Source of the DNA: a virus
Length of the DNA stretch: 25,941 nt
Strand: one strand, 5' to 3'
Virus record (IMG/VR): IMGVR_UViG_3300047557_001824
Coordinates: 1-25,941 of that record
Each line of letters opens with the position of its first letter. Position 1 is the first letter of the stretch. The notes under the pieces were generated by a model that did not search any database, was not told the DNA's origin, and saw only the letters and a list, made by a program, of their open reading frames with translations. Both the position numbers and the translations under genes were made by a program. Shown here piece after piece: positions 962 to 17,416 of this stretch.

Positions 962-1183
962 ATGAACACTCCCAATTGGCAACACCATTCCAAGAAGGAT
1001 CAGAAACGAAAACTTAAACCGCAAGCACTGAGGCAAGCAAAAGCGCGACTTGCCCAGTTCAAAAAGCGTCACATGGGTCGTCCGAAGGGCGACCTTTCGT
1101 TGTATGATGGGTACATACGAAACGAATCCGATGCCTGTTCGCCACGAAATCAAGTCTCAACTCGCCAAACTGCTTGCCACTGA
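962..1183 (+). CDS. Small basic hypothetical protein
   Basis: A 73-aa ORF whose ATG directly follows the TAA of the dehydrogenase gene. The first 50 residues are strongly basic (KKDQKRKLKPQALRQAK, then FKKRHMGRPKG) with no membrane segment, which suggests nucleic-acid or ribosome contact; that is inference. The 3' part overlaps the likely start of the next gene (1131) by 53 bases in another frame. Base composition here (33 of 60 G+C at 1021-1080) is higher than in most of the window. I do not recognise the family. Abutting the preceding stop and lying just downstream of a sigma70-like promoter support it as a real gene. Confidence 0.5.
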   Translation: MNTPNWQHHSKKDQKRKLKPQALRQAKARLAQFKKRHMGRPKGDLSLYDGYIRNESDACSPRNQVSTRQTACH

Positions 1184-3320
1184 AGATTTGGTGGTGGAGC
1201 ATAAGAAGGTCTCTACTGCCTGCTTCAACGTTCACACTCGCGTTCTGACGCTTCCACTGTGGGAGAAAGCAAGTGGAACTGTATATGACCTTCTGGTGGG
1301 TCATGAAGTAGGACACGCTCTTTTTACTCCCGACGAGGATTGGACTGAACAAGTAAAAGTTCCTCCTCAGTTTGTAAATGTTGTTGAGGATGCTCGCATT
1401 GAGAAACTGATGAAGCGCAAGTATGCTGGACTTGCTAAAACCTTTTACAATGGTTATAAAGAACTGAACGAAGATGACTTCTTTCAGATTGAAGAAGAAA
1501 ATATTTCTTCCTTTAATCTTGCAGATCGTGCAAATTTGTTCTTCAAAATTGGTAATTATACTTGCATTCCTATTGAAGATGGCGAAGAACAAGAAATTAT
1601 TAATCTGATTTCTGTATCCGAAACCTTCTCAGATGTCTTGATTGCTGCCGAAGAACTTTACAAATATTGCAAGAAAGAAAAGGAGCAACAACAAAAGGTT
1701 GCTGACTTCGATTCTCACGAAACTCAGGGAAATTCACAGTCTCCCGCCAATGAAATTGCGGAGACGAATGACTCCTCTTCCGAGCAAGAAGGGGATAGTG
1801 ATAACTCGCAACCTAAGGAGGATGGAGGTTCTTATGGTGGAACTGCTCAGGGTGATCAAACTCCAGCGATTTCTTCTGGTGAAGAAAGTGAACCCGAAGT
1901 TCGCACTGCAGATTCTCTGGAAGAAAAACTTCGTGACCTTGTTGGTAGTGATGCTTATGAAAATACCTATGTTGAAGTTCCTCAACTGAATCTGAACACT
2001 ATTATTGGCAGTAACTCCGAGGTTCATAAAGATATTAATAACTCTTTTACCCATCAACAGAAACTTCATAACGAACATGCAAAAGATAAAGGATTTACTC
2101 CAGTAAATCTATACAAAGAATCTGACATGGAGTTTCTAAAATTTAAGACCTCTGCACAGAAGGAAGTCAACTATCTGGTCAAAGAGTTTGAGTGTCGCAA
2201 AGCAGCAGATCAGTATGCTCGCACATCAACTGCTCGCACTGGTGTTCTTGACACCTCTCGTCTTCATACTTACAAATATAATGAAGATCTCTTCAAGAAA
2301 GTTTCTGTAATTCCCGATGGTAAGAATCACGGTCTGGTGTTTGTTTTAGACTGGAGTGGTTCTATGTCTGATGTGATGCTTGATACCTGCAAACAACTTT
2401 TCAATCTTGTATGGTTCTGTAAGAAAGTCTCTATTCCCTTTGAAGTTTATGCTTTCACTAATGAATGGCGTCGTGGCGAATATGATTATGAAAATGATCG
2501 TTATCTCGCAGCTGACCGCACTCCTCATTATGAAAAGAAGGAAAGTTTATTGTTTGTTGACGAAACTTTCTCTATGATGAATATTCTTACTAGTAAAGTA
2601 AATGGTAAAGAATTGGAGAATCAACTACTTAACATCTGGCGTCTCGCTTATTGTTTTTCTAGGACCTATACTTCTCCTTATACTTACCCCAATCGTATGT
2701 GTCTGTCTGGAACTCCTCTGAATGAAGCACTTATTTCTCTTCATCAGATTCTCCCCAAATTTCGGAAAGAGAATAACCTCCAGAAGGTTCAATGTATTGT
2801 TTTGACCGATGGTGAGGCAAATCAACTCAACTACCATCGAGAAGTAAAACGTGCCTGGGAGAAATCCCCATATCTTGGAACTGCTGGAGTATATCCCAAT
2901 ACTACTTTTCTTCGTGACCGCAAACTTGGAACTACCTATAAAGTCGAACACGGATACCATGCTTTCACTGACACTCTTCTCCGAAACTTGAAAGATAAGT
3001 TTTCTTCAACAAACTTTATTGGTATTCGTGTTCTTGAAAGTCGCAATGCTCATCGATTTATTCAACTTTATCATCCCCAAAGTGATAAGCAGTATGAAAA
3101 AATTCAAAGTGACTGGAGGAAACTGAGGAGCTTTACTATCACCAACTCTGGATATGATGCATACTTTGGATTGTCTGCCACTGCACTTGCTCAAGATACT
3201 GAGTTTGAAGTTGCTGAAGATGCCACTAAGTCACAAATCAAATCTGCGTTTGTTAAGTCTCTGAAGACTAAGAAACTAAATAAGAAAGTTCTTGGTGAGT
3301 TTATTTCTTTGGTAGCATGA
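1131..3320 (+). CDS. CobT-like protein: zinc metallopeptidase motif plus VWA domain
   Basis: I place the start at ATG 1131 (729 aa), because the open frame back to 1050 only overlaps the small upstream ORF and adds no recognisable sequence. The N-terminal region has the zinc motif HEVGH (residues 58-62), then VVEDARIEKLM (about 83-93), resembling the 'EQARVEAL' helix of CobT. A Ser/Asp/Glu-rich low-complexity linker covers about 190-260. The C-terminal part has GVLDTSRL and then a VWA domain with the MIDAS motif DWSGS (406-410), a SGTPL threonine loop and VLTDGEAN. This order matches cobaltochelatase CobT, whose VWA protein works with an AAA+ partner, and a CobS/MoxR-like AAA+ gene lies just downstream. 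It is therefore probably half of an AAA+/VWA remodelling machine; the client is unknown. The HExGH site implies possible proteolysis. Confidence 0.75.
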   Translation: MPVRHEIKSQLAKLLATEDLVVEHKKVSTACFNVHTRVLTLPLWEKASGTVYDLLVGHEVGHALFTPDEDWTEQVKVPPQFVNVVEDARIEKLMKRKYAGLAKTFYNGYKELNEDDFFQIEEENISSFNLADRANLFFKIGNYTCIPIEDGEEQEIINLISVSETFSDVLIAAEELYKYCKKEKEQQQKVADFDSHETQGNSQSPANEIAETNDSSSEQEGDSDNSQPKEDGGSYGGTAQGDQTPAISSGEESEPEVRTADSLEEKLRDLVGSDAYENTYVEVPQLNLNTIIGSNSEVHKDINNSFTHQQKLHNEHAKDKGFTPVNLYKESDMEFLKFKTSAQKEVNYLVKEFECRKAADQYARTSTARTGVLDTSRLHTYKYNEDLFKKVSVIPDGKNHGLVFVLDWSGSMSDVMLDTCKQLFNLVWFCKKVSIPFEVYAFTNEWRRGEYDYENDRYLAADRTPHYEKKESLLFVDETFSMMNILTSKVNGKELENQLLNIWRLAYCFSRTYTSPYTYPNRMCLSGTPLNEALISLHQILPKFRKENNLQKVQCIVLTDGEANQLNYHREVKRAWEKSPYLGTAGVYPNTTFLRDRKLGTTYKVEHGYHAFTDTLLRNLKDKFSSTNFIGIRVLESRNAHRFIQLYHPQSDKQYEKIQSDWRKLRSFTITNSGYDAYFGLSATALAQDTEFEVAEDATKSQIKSAFVKSLKTKKLNKKVLGEFISLVA

Positions 3321-3502
3321 AACAAAAATTTCCTTTTGAACATGTAGTAAAATACGACACTAAAGAAGTCTGGATTAAATGTAATAGCAGTGCTACTGCT
3401 ATGGGAATTCAAACACTCATTCAAAAATATTATCCCGGTTATACTGGTCATATTGCTAGCGCTGACTACCTTGATAAACTCAAGAACCAGTTGGCAAACT
3501 GA
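3317..3502 (+). CDS. Small hypothetical protein, 61 aa
   Basis: The ATG overlaps the TGA of the CobT-like gene (ATGA at 3317-3320) and the ORF ends just before a clear terminator, so it is the last gene of that transcription unit. The product is soluble-looking and slightly basic (MKQKFPFEHVVKY at the start, YYPGYTGHIASADYL near the end) with no transmembrane segment. I do not recognise the family. Its position suggests a role with, or regulation of, the CobT-like/CobS-like pair; that is inference from context only. Confidence 0.65.
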   Translation: MKQKFPFEHVVKYDTKEVWIKCNSSATAMGIQTLIQKYYPGYTGHIASADYLDKLKNQLAN

Positions 3503-3507
3503 CCACT

Positions 3508-3530
3508 GGGGGTCCTTTTGATCCCCTTTT
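3508..3530 (+). terminator. Rho-independent terminator after the CobT-like operon
   Basis: GGGGGTC (3508-3514) pairs with GATCCCC (3520-3526), with one G-T pair, around a 5-base loop, followed by TTTT. It closes the unit 962-3502. A TATAAT hexamer at 3536-3541 follows, but I see no matching -35 box. Confidence 0.8.
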
Positions 3531-3564
3531 CCGTTTATAATGACTATGTTGAAACGAAACGCAC

Positions 3565-4686
3565 ATGGCACTCTCTTCTGACTACATCCGCACTTCTCTC
3601 CAGGCACTTTATGGCAACAACGTGACTGGTGCCGATATTCGTGCTTGGTGTGCTATGAATGACTCTAACTACCAAACCGTTACTAAAAAACTGGATCAGT
3701 TTAAAGTTGGTCGTGGCAAATGGAATCTTGAAGTAACTCAACAAAAGGTAGAAGAAATCGAACGTACTTTCCAAGCACCTGCTGTGGTTCCTCCCGTAGA
3801 GCAAAACCTTATTCCTGATAAAGATGATACCTTCGTCAAGTTTGGTAACTTTAGCGATATTAAAAAAATTATTCAGTCCCGTCTTTTTTATCCTACGTTC
3901 ATTACGGGTCTTTCGGGTAATGGTAAAACGTTCTCGGTGGAGCAAGCTTGTGCTCAACTTAAGCGTGAACTGATCCGCGTTAACATCACCATCGAAACTG
4001 ATGAAGATGACCTGATTGGCGGTTTCCGTCTTGTGAATGGTGAGACCGTTTGGCACAATGGTCCTGTGATTGAGGCACTTGAGCGTGGTGCGATTCTGCT
4101 TCTTGATGAGATTGACCTTGCCTCTAACAAGATTCTGTGCCTTCAATCTGTTCTGGAAGGTAAGGGTGTCTTCCTCAAGAAAATCGGTAAGTTCGTCAAA
4201 CCTGCTGCTGGATTCAACGTGTTTGCCACCGCAAACACCAAGGGCAAGGGTTCTGATGATGGGCGCTTCATCGGCACCAACGTGCTCAACGAGGCGTTCC
4301 TAGAGCGTTTCCCCGTGACTCTGGAGCAATCCTACCCTGCTCCCACTACCGAGCAGAAGATCCTTGAGGGCATTGCTTTGGACCTTGGAGTGGAGGACCG
4401 TGACTTCTGCAAGCGTCTGGTTGACTGGGCAGACATCATCCGCAAGACCTTCTACGATGGTGGCATTGAAGAAATCATTAGCACTCGTCGCTTGGTTCAC
4501 GTTGTCCGTGCTTATAGTATCTTCCAAGATAAGGCAAAGGCAATCCAAGTGTGCGTGAACCGCTTTGACGACGAAACCAAGCAAGCTTTCCTTGAACTCT
4601 ATGATAAAGTGGATGCAGACTTCCAAATGCCTTCTACTGGTCCTGAACTGACTGTAGAATACGTTGACCAACCCGCTCCATTCTGA
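3565..4686 (+). CDS. cobS-like: CobS/MoxR-like AAA+ ATPase
   Basis: A 373-aa AAA+ protein. Walker A is GLSGNGKT (115-122), Walker B is ILLLDE (177-182), the sensor-1 Asn lies in FATANT (220-225) and the arginine finger lies in LERF (246-249). The layout fits the CobS/MoxR clade, and cyanophage genomes commonly label this gene cobS. In bacteria CobS forms an ATP-driven complex with CobT that supports cobalt insertion by CobN. The N-terminal 90 residues are a separate helical region ending in a Pro/Val linker. The neighbouring CobT-like gene makes a two-component machine likely; no CobN-like subunit is present here. GC content rises sharply inside the gene (38 of 60 bases at 4261-4320). Confidence 0.82.
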   Translation: MALSSDYIRTSLQALYGNNVTGADIRAWCAMNDSNYQTVTKKLDQFKVGRGKWNLEVTQQKVEEIERTFQAPAVVPPVEQNLIPDKDDTFVKFGNFSDIKKIIQSRLFYPTFITGLSGNGKTFSVEQACAQLKRELIRVNITIETDEDDLIGGFRLVNGETVWHNGPVIEALERGAILLLDEIDLASNKILCLQSVLEGKGVFLKKIGKFVKPAAGFNVFATANTKGKGSDDGRFIGTNVLNEAFLERFPVTLEQSYPAPTTEQKILEGIALDLGVEDRDFCKRLVDWADIIRKTFYDGGIEEIISTRRLVHVVRAYSIFQDKAKAIQVCVNRFDDETKQAFLELYDKVDADFQMPSTGPELTVEYVDQPAPF

Positions 4687-4742: not shown

Positions 4743-5222
4743 ATGTCTGAAAATTTTGAGAGCACTTACGAAAGTCCAATTCCAAAACAAACTGTAATTT
4801 CTGGTGGAATTGGATCTGATACAATTTCTTTTTCTGGAGCACAGGATTTTTGGCAACATGATGGAATCAGTTTGACAGGAAATCCTTTTGCTTCTCTTGA
4901 TACAATTACTTTTGATTTGAATATGCGCGAAGATACGAACAAAAACGGATTTTGGAAATATAATGAAGATAAAATCCTGAAGCAACTTGAGCAATATATT
5001 TCGGGCACTTACAGTCAGCACTATGTTGATCGCACTGGTGGTGGAACAGAACAAACATTGGATAAAATAAAACACAATCGCCGTGAAGGATTTTGTGCAG
5101 GTAACGTAACTAAGTATATTGATCGTTATGACACCAAAGGAACTCCCCGTGCCGATTTGTTTAAAGTTTTGCATTATACTATTCTTCTGATTAACCATCT
5201 CAATCTTATTGAAAATAAGTGA
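4743..5222 (+). CDS. DUF3310 (SaV-like) protein
   Basis: A 159-aa protein whose C-terminal part, from about residue 85 (YISGTYSQHYV, then GFCAGNVTKYIDRYDTKG at 116-133 and DLFKVLHYTILLINH), matches the DUF3310 pattern of phage proteins. These are sometimes labelled 'nucleotide kinase' without biochemical proof. The N-terminal 80 residues are a phage-specific extension I do not recognise. It is the first gene after a sigma70-like promoter and ends 2 bases before the gp45 ATG, so it is probably co-expressed with the replication genes. A role in nucleotide metabolism is often assumed but is not shown by any motif I see. Confidence 0.65.
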   Translation: MSENFESTYESPIPKQTVISGGIGSDTISFSGAQDFWQHDGISLTGNPFASLDTITFDLNMREDTNKNGFWKYNEDKILKQLEQYISGTYSQHYVDRTGGGTEQTLDKIKHNRREGFCAGNVTKYIDRYDTKGTPRADLFKVLHYTILLINHLNLIENK

Positions 5223-5224
5223 TT

Positions 5225-5890
5225 ATGAAACTTTCCGATAAAACTCTTTCCGTCCTGAAGAACTTCTCTTCAATCAACCAGTCTATTCTCTTCAAAGAAG
5301 GGAGCAAACTCCGTACTATCAGTGTAATGAAGAATATTCTCGCTGAAGCAACGATCACTGAAGAGTTCTCTAAAGATTTTGGTATCTATGATTTGAACCA
5401 GTTTTTGAATGGTCTTGGTCTTCACCAAAGTCCTGAACTTGACTTTGAAAATGACAGTTATGTTGTCATTCGCGAAGGAAAAATGCGTTCTAAGTACTTC
5501 TTCGCCGATCCGAATGTGATTGTTACTCCGCCAGATAAACAAATTAATCTCCCTAGTGAAGATGTTTGCTTTGAATTGAGTACTGAACAACTTGATAAAC
5601 TACTTAAGGCTGCTGCTGTTTACCAACTCCCAGATATTTCTGCGGTGGGTGAAGCAGGTGTAGTTAAACTTGTTGTTCGTGATAAGAAAAACGATACTTC
5701 AAATGATTTTGCTATTGTCGTCGGAGAAACCGAATCGGATTTTGTCTTTAACTTTAAAGTGGAAAACATTAAAGTTCTTCCTGGAACGTATGAAGTAGTT
5801 GTATCCCAAAAACTTTTGTCTCGATTTACAAGTAAGAATCATGACCTTTGCTATTATATTGCTCTAGAACCAGATTCCACTTTTGGGTAA
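5225..5890 (+). CDS. 45: gp45 sliding clamp (DNA polymerase processivity factor)
   Basis: A 221-aa protein starting MKLSDKTLSVLKNFSSINQ, which closely follows the T4 gp45 N-terminus; this fixes the start at ATG 5225 rather than the in-frame GTG at 5219. The end, YYIALEPDS, also matches gp45. In T4 the trimeric ring tethers gp43 to DNA and also connects the late-transcription proteins gp33 and gp55 to RNA polymerase. Length is close to T4 (228 aa). It lies in the core cluster, separated from its loader gp44 by two accessory genes, unlike T4 where 45 and 44 are adjacent. Confidence 0.93.
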   Translation: MKLSDKTLSVLKNFSSINQSILFKEGSKLRTISVMKNILAEATITEEFSKDFGIYDLNQFLNGLGLHQSPELDFENDSYVVIREGKMRSKYFFADPNVIVTPPDKQINLPSEDVCFELSTEQLDKLLKAAAVYQLPDISAVGEAGVVKLVVRDKKNDTSNDFAIVVGETESDFVFNFKVENIKVLPGTYEVVVSQKLLSRFTSKNHDLCYYIALEPDSTFG

Positions 5891-7034: not shown

Positions 7035-7979
7035 ATGGCAAGTGAATTTCTTCTCACCGAAAAATACCGTCCTCAAGTAATTGATGATTGTATTCTTCCT
7101 GATGAAACTAAAAAAACATTTAAGGATTTTGTAGAGAAAGGTGAGATTCCTAATCTCCTTCTTGCTGGACCTCCTGGTATCGGAAAAACCACAATCGCAA
7201 AAGCATTATGCAATGAATTAGGGGCAGATTACTATGTCATCAACGGATCCGACGAAGGGCGTTTCTTGGATACTGTACGAAACCAAGCAAAGAACTTCGC
7301 TTCGACCGTTTCACTTACGGGATCTTCTAAACACAAAGTTATCATCATTGACGAAGCAGACAACACCGGTAATGATGTACAACTCCTACTACGGGCGAAT
7401 ATTGAGGCATTTTATGGCAACTGCCGATTCATCTTCACCTGCAACTACAAGAACAAGATTATCGAACCTCTTCACTCTCGTTGTGCAGTCATTGACTTCA
7501 CAATCAAGGGAAAGCAAAAGGTTCAACTCGCAGGAAGTTTCTTCAAACGACTGCAGACAATCTTGGAGCAAGAAAAGATTGAGTATGATCAAAAAGTCGT
7601 TGCTGAACTTGTTACAAAACATTTCCCAGATTTTCGTAGGGTCCTTAATGAATGCCAAAGGTATTCCACAGGAGGAAAAATTGACTCGGGCATTCTTGCA
7701 TCTTTCTCAGACATTTCTGTAAATGAACTCATCAAACATCTCAAGGAAAAGAACTTCACGGAAGTCAGGAAGTGGGTCGTTTCTAACTTGGACAATGATT
7801 CTACTCTCGTTCTTCGCAGGGTTTATGACGCCTGTTATGATTGCCTTACATCCCAATCTATCCCTGCTGCCGTTCTTGTTATTGCTAAGTACCAATATCA
7901 GTGTGCGTTTGTGGCTGACCAGGAAATTAACCTCTTAGCGGCACTAACTGAAATTATGGTGGAGTGTGAATTCAAATGA
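7035..7979 (+). CDS. 44: gp44 clamp loader large subunit (AAA+ ATPase)
   Basis: A 314-aa clamp loader ATPase. TEKYRP (8-13) is the typical start of RFC/gp44 proteins, GPPGIGKT (45-52) is Walker A, IIIDEAD (103-109) is Walker B and LHSRC carries the SRC motif with the arginine finger. In T4 four gp44 and one gp62 open the gp45 ring and place it on primed DNA. The length is near T4 gp44 (319 aa). ATG 7035 is chosen because it starts the conserved segment and follows the previous stop by 2 bases. The stop overlaps the methylase start by ATGA. Confidence 0.93.
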   Translation: MASEFLLTEKYRPQVIDDCILPDETKKTFKDFVEKGEIPNLLLAGPPGIGKTTIAKALCNELGADYYVINGSDEGRFLDTVRNQAKNFASTVSLTGSSKHKVIIIDEADNTGNDVQLLLRANIEAFYGNCRFIFTCNYKNKIIEPLHSRCAVIDFTIKGKQKVQLAGSFFKRLQTILEQEKIEYDQKVVAELVTKHFPDFRRVLNECQRYSTGGKIDSGILASFSDISVNELIKHLKEKNFTEVRKWVVSNLDNDSTLVLRRVYDACYDCLTSQSIPAAVLVIAKYQYQCAFVADQEINLLAALTEIMVECEFK

Positions 7980-8833
7980 CCAGTCAAAAACAATTAAAAA
8001 CTTGTTTAAGGTATCCTGGCGGAAAATCCCGTGCTTGTGAAAAGATGGGACCATATTTTCCAGACCTTCGCAATTACGATGAATTCCGTGAACCATTTCT
8101 TGGTGGTGGAAGTGTTGCAATCTATATTACTAAAAAATATCCAAACCTTAAAATTTGGGTAAATGATCTTTATGAACCACTTGTAAACTTCTGGCAGCAA
8201 CTCCAGATGTTTGGAAATGATCTAAAAAACGAACTAGTGGATTGTAAACTTTCTTACAACACTCCCGAACTTGCGAGAGAACTTTTTCTCAAATCAAAGG
8301 GACATGTGAATACCAAAGATCTATCAAGTCTTGATCGTGCTGTTGCTTTCTATATTGTCAATAAATGTTCATTCTCTGGTCTCACGGAAAGTTCATCATT
8401 TTCTGCTCAAGCATCACAAAGCAACTTTTCAATGCGAGGAATTGAGAAACTGCCAGAGTATGCAAAACTAATTTCTAAGTGGCGCATAACTAATTACTCC
8501 TATGATTATCTAATGGATGGAAACAAAGGTGCTTTTATGTATCTCGATCCTCCTTATGATATTAAGGATAACCTCTATGGGCGTAAGGGATCAATGCATA
8601 AAGGATTTGATCACGATAAGTTTGCTTCTGATTGCGATTCTTGTTCTATGGATCAACTGATCAGTTATAATTCTGATCAACTGGTTAAAGATCGTTTCAA
8701 AAACTGGAATGCTGCTGAGTTTGACCTTACTTATACAATGAGGTCGGTTGGTGAATATATGCGAGAGCAAAAACAAAGAAAAGAATTGCTGCTATTTAAT
8801 TATGGAACTGAAGGATTGGTTGAATTCAATTAA
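7976..8833 (+). CDS. dam: Dam-type DNA adenine-N6 methyltransferase
   Basis: A 285-aa D12-class adenine methyltransferase. RYPGGKSRA (12-20) and EPFLGGGSV (39-47) form the SAM-binding motifs, and LDPPYD (190-195) is the catalytic DPPY motif. T4 Dam is 259 aa and methylates GATC; the target here cannot be read from the motifs. The gene lies between clamp loader genes 44 and 62, which are adjacent in T4. It overlaps both neighbours (ATGA with 44; 32 bases with 62). Probable roles are protecting phage DNA from restriction or marking replicated DNA. Its by-product SAH is the substrate of the hydrolase at 16151. Confidence 0.88.
   Translation: MTSQKQLKTCLRYPGGKSRACEKMGPYFPDLRNYDEFREPFLGGGSVAIYITKKYPNLKIWVNDLYEPLVNFWQQLQMFGNDLKNELVDCKLSYNTPELARELFLKSKGHVNTKDLSSLDRAVAFYIVNKCSFSGLTESSSFSAQASQSNFSMRGIEKLPEYAKLISKWRITNYSYDYLMDGNKGAFMYLDPPYDIKDNLYGRKGSMHKGFDHDKFASDCDSCSMDQLISYNSDQLVKDRFKNWNAAEFDLTYTMRSVGEYMREQKQRKELLLFNYGTEGLVEFN

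Positions 8834-14788: not shown

Positions 14789-17415
<2,627 letters not shown>

Positions 17416-17416
<1 letters not shown>

Follow-up and report, generated by a model that had tools for sequence, protein, structure and literature searches.

Two neighbouring genes in the 25,941-bp IMG/VR virus fragment IMGVR_UViG_3300047557_001824, which comes from a T4-like cyanomyovirus and was analyzed over its full length (the window), encode a 729-residue protein with an N-terminal zincin-like domain and a C-terminal VWA domain (the VWA protein) and a 373-residue CobS-like AAA+ ATPase. Judging from their sequences, the two proteins very probably work together as a two-part AAA+/VWA machine. We consider the chances about even that they represent the motor and the client-binding or client-cleaving half of one peptidase-remodeller whose client belongs to DNA replication or recombination, with no part in B12 synthesis; a client from DNA metabolism is, taken alone, an equally balanced proposition, and a chelatase role appears unlikely. 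The cyanophage gene called cobS belongs to the core genome of a virus group that ranks among the most abundant in the ocean; ecologists use it as a marker, and it is routinely listed with the auxiliary genes for B12. The pairing of cobS with cobT (Liu et al., 2021) and the MoxR/VWA-metallopeptidase architecture in other jumbo phages (Iyer et al., 2021) are already known; new here are the retained peptidase site, its link to a degenerate CobT domain, and the replication context.

The putative peptidase half is the N-terminal domain of the VWA protein. In its AlphaFold2 (AF2) model three strands are followed by the helix that carries the HExxH motif (HEVGH) and, as the next helix, by that carrying EDARIE, placing both the motif and a candidate third ligand on a predicted zincin fold. 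The residues H58, E59, H62, N83, E86, D87, and R89 are invariant in 38 aligned sequences that are 35–83% identical to the window protein. HExxH was present in 177 of 177 loci, a count that is not fully independent, since part of the loci were fetched using HEVGH patterns; the named phages and a set of 80 loci were retrieved without use of the motif. The ratio of nonsynonymous to synonymous substitution rates (dN/dS) in the domain, 0.05–0.09, indicates purifying selection. Foldseek matches in the PDB were mainly zinc metallopeptidases: ArdC, jannalysin (probability 1.00), abylysin, selecase, the BlaR1 protease domain, IrrE/PprI, and Wss1. Those in BFVD were phage proteins named "CobT," "VWFA," or "metallopeptidase," together with a 355-residue protein of HHTV-2, a virus whose cobT is split according to the accessible part of Liu et al. 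(2021, PMC8651126). From sequence and model together, the zinc site of the N-domain is probably functional.

The C-terminal half (residues 262–729) was predicted to adopt a VWA fold, with a predicted local distance difference test score (pLDDT) of 84, and holds the complete DxSxS...T...D metal ion-dependent adhesion site (MIDAS). Its residues D407, S409, S411, T528, and D560, as well as E86 of the N-domain, are invariant in P-SSM2, syn9, HTVC008M, S-CRM01, and P-HM1 (31–55% identity). The five best PDB matches of this half were all the NorD VWA domain in NorQD AAA+ complexes, and the midasin MIDAS ranked 31. A PDB sequence search with the 729-residue protein or its profile returned linker noise only, and the CobT chains 9uka and 21vt were not among the best 50 Foldseek matches listed for either the N-domain or the VWA half, in a library that may not hold them. 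The last ~30 residues of the protein are nearly invariant (KxxFxKSLKxKKxNKKxLxxFIxxVA at the extreme C-terminus), and it is possible that this tail is a docking peptide for the AAA+ ring.

The 373-residue protein has all the features of a MoxR/CobS-type AAA+ motor, with the Walker A and B motifs, sensor 1 (N224), the Arg finger (R248), and sensor 2 (R308) invariant. Its PDB matches included CobS (9ujv, 9e-23) and NorQ (9e-14), and CobS was the best single-domain match at 84 bits. Midasin was rejected as the nearest motor, as its total E-value of 6e-50 sums several weak AAA domains, the best of which scored 41 bits. The protein reached 72 bits against the CobS equivalog model TIGR01650, far below the cut-off of 558.55. 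Its first ~100 residues (3565–3861, + strand) form a separate small domain that is absent from CobS, and in the alignment the motors of the SSU5 type have a CxxC-type zinc-finger-like N-terminus in its place.

The sequence-only reading had described in the VWA protein the CobT order of features, namely EDARIE, an acidic linker, GVLDTSRL, and the MIDAS sequence DWSGS, plus an HEVGH zinc motif; all of these were located and, being conserved in relatives, go beyond chance. It had further proposed that the phage carries both the CobS and the CobT half, of which it stands that a CobT-homologous VWA protein lies beside a CobS-like AAA+ ATPase, but the VWA protein is not CobT proper. The 729-residue protein had no hit to Pfam CobT (PF06213), CobT_C (PF11775), or VWA and no match to NCBIfam CobT, and none of six cyanophage and pelagiphage proteins scored above the gathering threshold of Pfam CobT or CobT_C. 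Its assignment draws on PHROGs, on profile-profile comparison, and on the predicted structure. Direct hhalign comparison of the cyanophage profile with one CobT or with 26 CobT sequences was not significant. Direct probabilities between cyanophage and CobT profiles were 3.6% and 9.2%, and the profile search that the earlier reading had called for returned homology through intermediates. In the N-domain, the cyanophage profile matched the SSU5-type proteins at 98.5% and the plasmid type at 97.6%, and these in turn matched CobT at 87% and 95.8%, respectively (reversed controls <0.5%). For the VWA half, cyanophage and SSU5-type profiles matched at 94.4%, and SSU5-type and plasmid profiles matched CobT at 99–100% (SSU5-type itself 100%; reversed controls ≤1.3%). 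By these transitive profile-profile links, the VWA protein classifies as a CobT homolog in both the N-domain and the VWA domain. SSU5-type proteins with HEVGH pass the Pfam threshold for CobT, and do so in the domain where the motif lies (Klebsiella plasmid pF132_1, 81.9 bits), whereas 26 of 26 alphaproteobacterial CobT proteins lack HExxH and have ADAxALRL at the aligned position. The simplest reading of these sequences is that the CobT N-domain is a peptidase-fold domain that has lost its zinc site, a direction proposed without a rooted tree. The existing labels "peptidase" and "cobT" are each half right.

The two genes occur together almost without exception. By tblastn, the VWA protein was found in 463 phage records, 458 of which matched across >80% of the query, and the AAA+ protein in 459–465 records at the same coverage. 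Counted by organism name, not by matching record to record, the numbers were equal for both genes (365/365 Synechococcus, 61/61 "Cyanophage," and 24/24 Prochlorococcus records; total 450). The AAA+ gene was present on 155 of the 183 contigs fetched via the VWA protein, and 27 of the 28 others end within 1.9 kb downstream of the VWA gene, so the joint occurrence expected across cyanophages proved near-perfect. The remaining contig (L195) has at positions 1–578 an N-domain-like stretch (query residues 8–189) with no VWA half and no AAA+ gene in the next 6 kb, possibly a stand-alone zincin domain or a frameshift. T4-like cyanophages share the order gp47-gp46-VWA-AAA-gp45-gp44; a few divergent phages have it rearranged, with the two genes still within ~4 kb of each other. 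We conclude that almost every T4-like virus infecting marine or freshwater cyanobacteria has the pair. Two records are phage DNA deposited as host genome: a cyanophage contig inside the Prochlorococcus single-cell genome AG-418-C09 and a 188-kb T4-like phage contig inside a Nonlabens xiamenensis isolate genome (L179, L184).

Related pairs elsewhere also lie among replication and recombination genes. On a Marinobacter plasmid the order is ssb-RecT-exonuclease-AAA-VWA, on a Pelobacter plasmid the pair is near a primase gene, in Pseudomonas phage nickie the order is ligase-cobT-cobS-DNA polymerase III alpha, and in phage-plasmids cobT-cobS is followed by dnaE (68 of 68 related contigs with room). 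Primase, ligase, helicase, or polymerase genes surround the pairs of Rhizobium phage N1_15, Vibrio phage ICP2, Stenotrophomonas phage BUCTxx99, and a Zobellviridae phage, and on IncC plasmids the AAA+ gene occurs with ssb, bet, and an exonuclease gene, the VWA partner being outside the stretch examined. Genes for HExGH-VWA proteins also directly follow an AAA+ gene in bacterial genomes (L200, L202, and L316), being rare in the class sampled around L202 (5 of 100 genomes).

Several points weigh against a replication-linked peptidase-remodeller. The E-values of the N-domain PDB matches are weak (0.05 to 3), and we hold to the zincin assignment because the list of matches is coherent and the motif is invariant. 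HExxH has been lost in nickie, an Acinetobacter phage-plasmid, and a Stenotrophomonas phage, and peptidase activity would seem not always to be needed because the AAA+ gene still adjoins the VWA gene in these relatives. Around the genes of Gordonia phages no clear replication genes were seen, only hypothetical neighbors or an HNH gene. The neighborhood argument is one of guilt by association, as T4-like phages inherit their gene order and the contigs of the SSU5 type are mutually related. A search of the accessible literature found no biochemical or expression data, including the expression class of the two genes.

How such a machine might operate can be sketched by analogy. The AAA+ protein would assemble into a ring powered by ATP, of the kind formed by CobS and NorQ (MoxR type), on which the VWA half could dock as NorD does on NorQ; the MIDAS would use Mg2+ to grip a client protein, as does the MIDAS of midasin, and the zincin domain on its flexible acidic linker may then cut or bind the client presented to it, for which the likeliest candidates are DNA replication or recombination proteins of the phage or its host. 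The systems compared share parts of this design. Bacterial CobS/CobT (cobaltochelatase; 9ujv, 9uka) has a homologous motor, a homologous N-domain, and the same VWA order, but its CobT lacks the zinc motif and the phage proteins fall short of the curated models. NorQ/NorD, which activates nitric oxide reductase, likewise couples an AAA+ protein to a VWA partner, and NorD gave the best structural matches of the phage VWA half; we know of no peptidase site in NorD. The SSU5-type and plasmid CobT/CobS-like pairs also combine an AAA+ protein with an HExxH-VWA protein, with N-domain probabilities of 97–98% by hhalign; they differ in being separate lineages, of which several match Pfam CobT/CobT_C and some have lost HExxH.

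The same gene pair in cyanophages and archaeal viruses was read by Liu et al. (2021, PMC8651126) as cobaltochelatase subunits; in the accessible part of that paper cobST is cyanophage core and cobT is said to be misannotated as "peptidase," so the cobS-cobT link, presented by the sequence-only reading as overlooked, had been stated before. Beyond the accessible part of that account, we add that the zincin site is intact and that the setting is a replication module. Their proposal, as available to us, would have the pair supply CobS and CobT missing from the host, work with host CobN, and raise cobalamin output during infection; that the two proteins are homologous to CobS and CobT speaks for it. 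We examined 81 genomes from the family of a Prochlorococcus genome (80 for the CobS and AAA+ searches): CobN scored above cut-off in 69 of 81, CobT in 0 of 81, and CobS in 0 of 80, its only occurrence being a phage contig within one genome (G001). This agrees with a report that cyanobacteria are without cobS and cobT (PMC9227772). The absence is not decisive because it fits the B12 proposal and a peptidase-remodeller alike. No relative of the phage AAA+ protein was found in the 80 genomes, and a host origin was rejected on that basis; this agrees with the view that the phages did not take cobS from their cyanobacterial host (PMC2984593) and disagrees with its derivation from the host (PMC9983427). 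As the earlier reading had noted, no CobN partner was found among the window proteins searched. We regard a viral CobST as improbable given the low TIGR01650 score and the Pfam misses, a zincin site kept where bacterial CobT has none, the replication-module context in phages of unrelated hosts, and the suggestion that ChlI/ChlD could stand in for CobS/CobT in cyanobacteria (PMC9227772). The earlier suggestion that the zinc motif favors a broader MoxR/VWA role is supported.

Iyer et al. (2021, PMC7824862) described an identical architecture, a MoxR AAA+ gene with an N-terminal metallopeptidase-vWA fusion, in jumbo phages of group 2.2, not the cyanophage group 2.1, and proposed a virion-assembly chaperone and maturation protease; they also reported an archaeal virus VWA/MoxR pair needed for tail assembly. 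The cyanophage genes, however, sit between recombination (gp46/47) and replication (gp45/44) genes rather than structural genes, and relatives occur on conjugative plasmids (IncC, Marinobacter) that have no virion, making an assembly role just as doubtful. It is still less probable that the pair is a non-proteolytic machine for maturing metal centers or cofactors, of the NorQD kind, with an HExxH domain that binds metal or client and does not cut: NorD supplies the nearest VWA folds, several 2-oxoglutarate-Fe(II) oxygenases are nearby in P-SSM2, and HExxH is dispensable in some relatives, but the catalytic E59 does not vary within the cyanophage branch, a constraint that metal binding by itself would not impose. 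Very unlikely, in our judgment, is a counter-defence or anti-restriction machine. ArdC (6sna) heads the Foldseek matches for the N-domain, but that match is weak (E 0.05), and the VWA gene is a near-universal core gene adjoining replication genes, not part of a variable island. No PADLOC match was obtained, and identity with a defence system was rejected.

If the pair is an AAA+/VWA peptidase-remodeller for DNA replication, a standard entry in surveys of viral metabolism is wrong, the long-open question of the role of cobS in infection becomes testable with a few point mutants, and an origin would be suggested for the enigmatic N-domain of CobT. A wider and quite tentative idea, which we think rather less likely than its contrary, is that an ATP-powered zinc protease, directed by its VWA domain to replication or recombination proteins, is widespread on mobile elements as, in effect, the viral equivalent of Wss1, IrrE, and similar DNA-linked proteases. 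Cobaltochelatase CobST would have descended from such a protease that lost its zinc site, and the cyanophage gene "cobS" would serve as a replication factor and not as a vitamin gene.

Features of the zincin-VWA/AAA+ locus in the window (coordinates in nucleotides)
Feature	Position	Strand	Basis or remark
Zincin-VWA protein, 729 residues	1131..3320	+	phrog_459 "peptidase," PHROG E 1e-264; "cobT" of Liu et al. (2021); alignment
N-domain, residues 1–190	1131..1700	+	Predicted zincin (minigluzincin-like) fold; AF2 pLDDT 88.6, predicted template modelling score (pTM) 0.83
HEVGH, residues 58–62	1302..1316	+	Predicted zinc ligands H58/H62, catalytic E59
EDARIE, residues 86–91	1386..1403	+	Predicted third zinc ligand helix (E86 or D87)
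Acidic low-complexity linker, residues ~190–262	1701..1916	+	Alignment; dN/dS among the protein's highest in most comparisons
GVLDTSRL pre-MIDAS segment, residues 371–378	2241..2264	+	Counterpart of CobT GYLDSARL by profile-profile register
MIDAS DWSGS, residues 407–411	2349..2363	+	Completed by T528 (2712–2714) and D560 (2808–2810)
C-terminal tail, residues ~691–729	3201..3317	+	Conserved in alignment; low model confidence, pLDDT ~55–60
Terminator-like hairpin	3508..3526	+	Between the VWA and AAA+ genes
CobS-like AAA+ ATPase, 373 residues	3565..4686	+	phrog_249 "porphyrin biosynthesis," PHROG E 2e-136; AAA_5 3e-17
Walker A GLSGNGKT	3907..3930	+	Alignment
Walker B LLLDEID	4096..4116	+	Alignment
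Sliding clamp gp45	5219..5890	+	PHROGs; opens downstream replication module
Replication module 3' of AAA+ gene	gp44 7023, gp62 8748, regA 9167, gp43 10739, uvsX 13766, gp41 helicase 14775		PHROGs

The closest named relatives of the window are Synechococcus phages Bellamy, S-SM2, and S-SRM01 (60–63% across the VWA protein). The mechanical open reading frame (ORF) of the VWA gene begins at a TTG at 1050, and the start adopted here is an ATG kept in relatives. The gap to the AAA+ gene, earlier given as about 240 bases, measured 244 bp, with both genes on the + strand; it contains a 61-residue ORF without a PHROG or Pfam match, and S-CRM01 has a terminator annotated at the same place as the hairpin. 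Elsewhere in the window, a UDP-glucose/GDP-mannose dehydrogenase (173–961, +) of only 262 residues looks shortened, matching the NAD-binding domain from position 77 and the central domain. A 421-residue S-adenosyl-L-homocysteine hydrolase (16151–17416, +; Pfam AdoHcyase 2e-64, no PHROG match) has relatives in only 3 of 50,697 phage records, and it may recycle the by-product of a DNA methyltransferase also encoded in the window (7976–8833).

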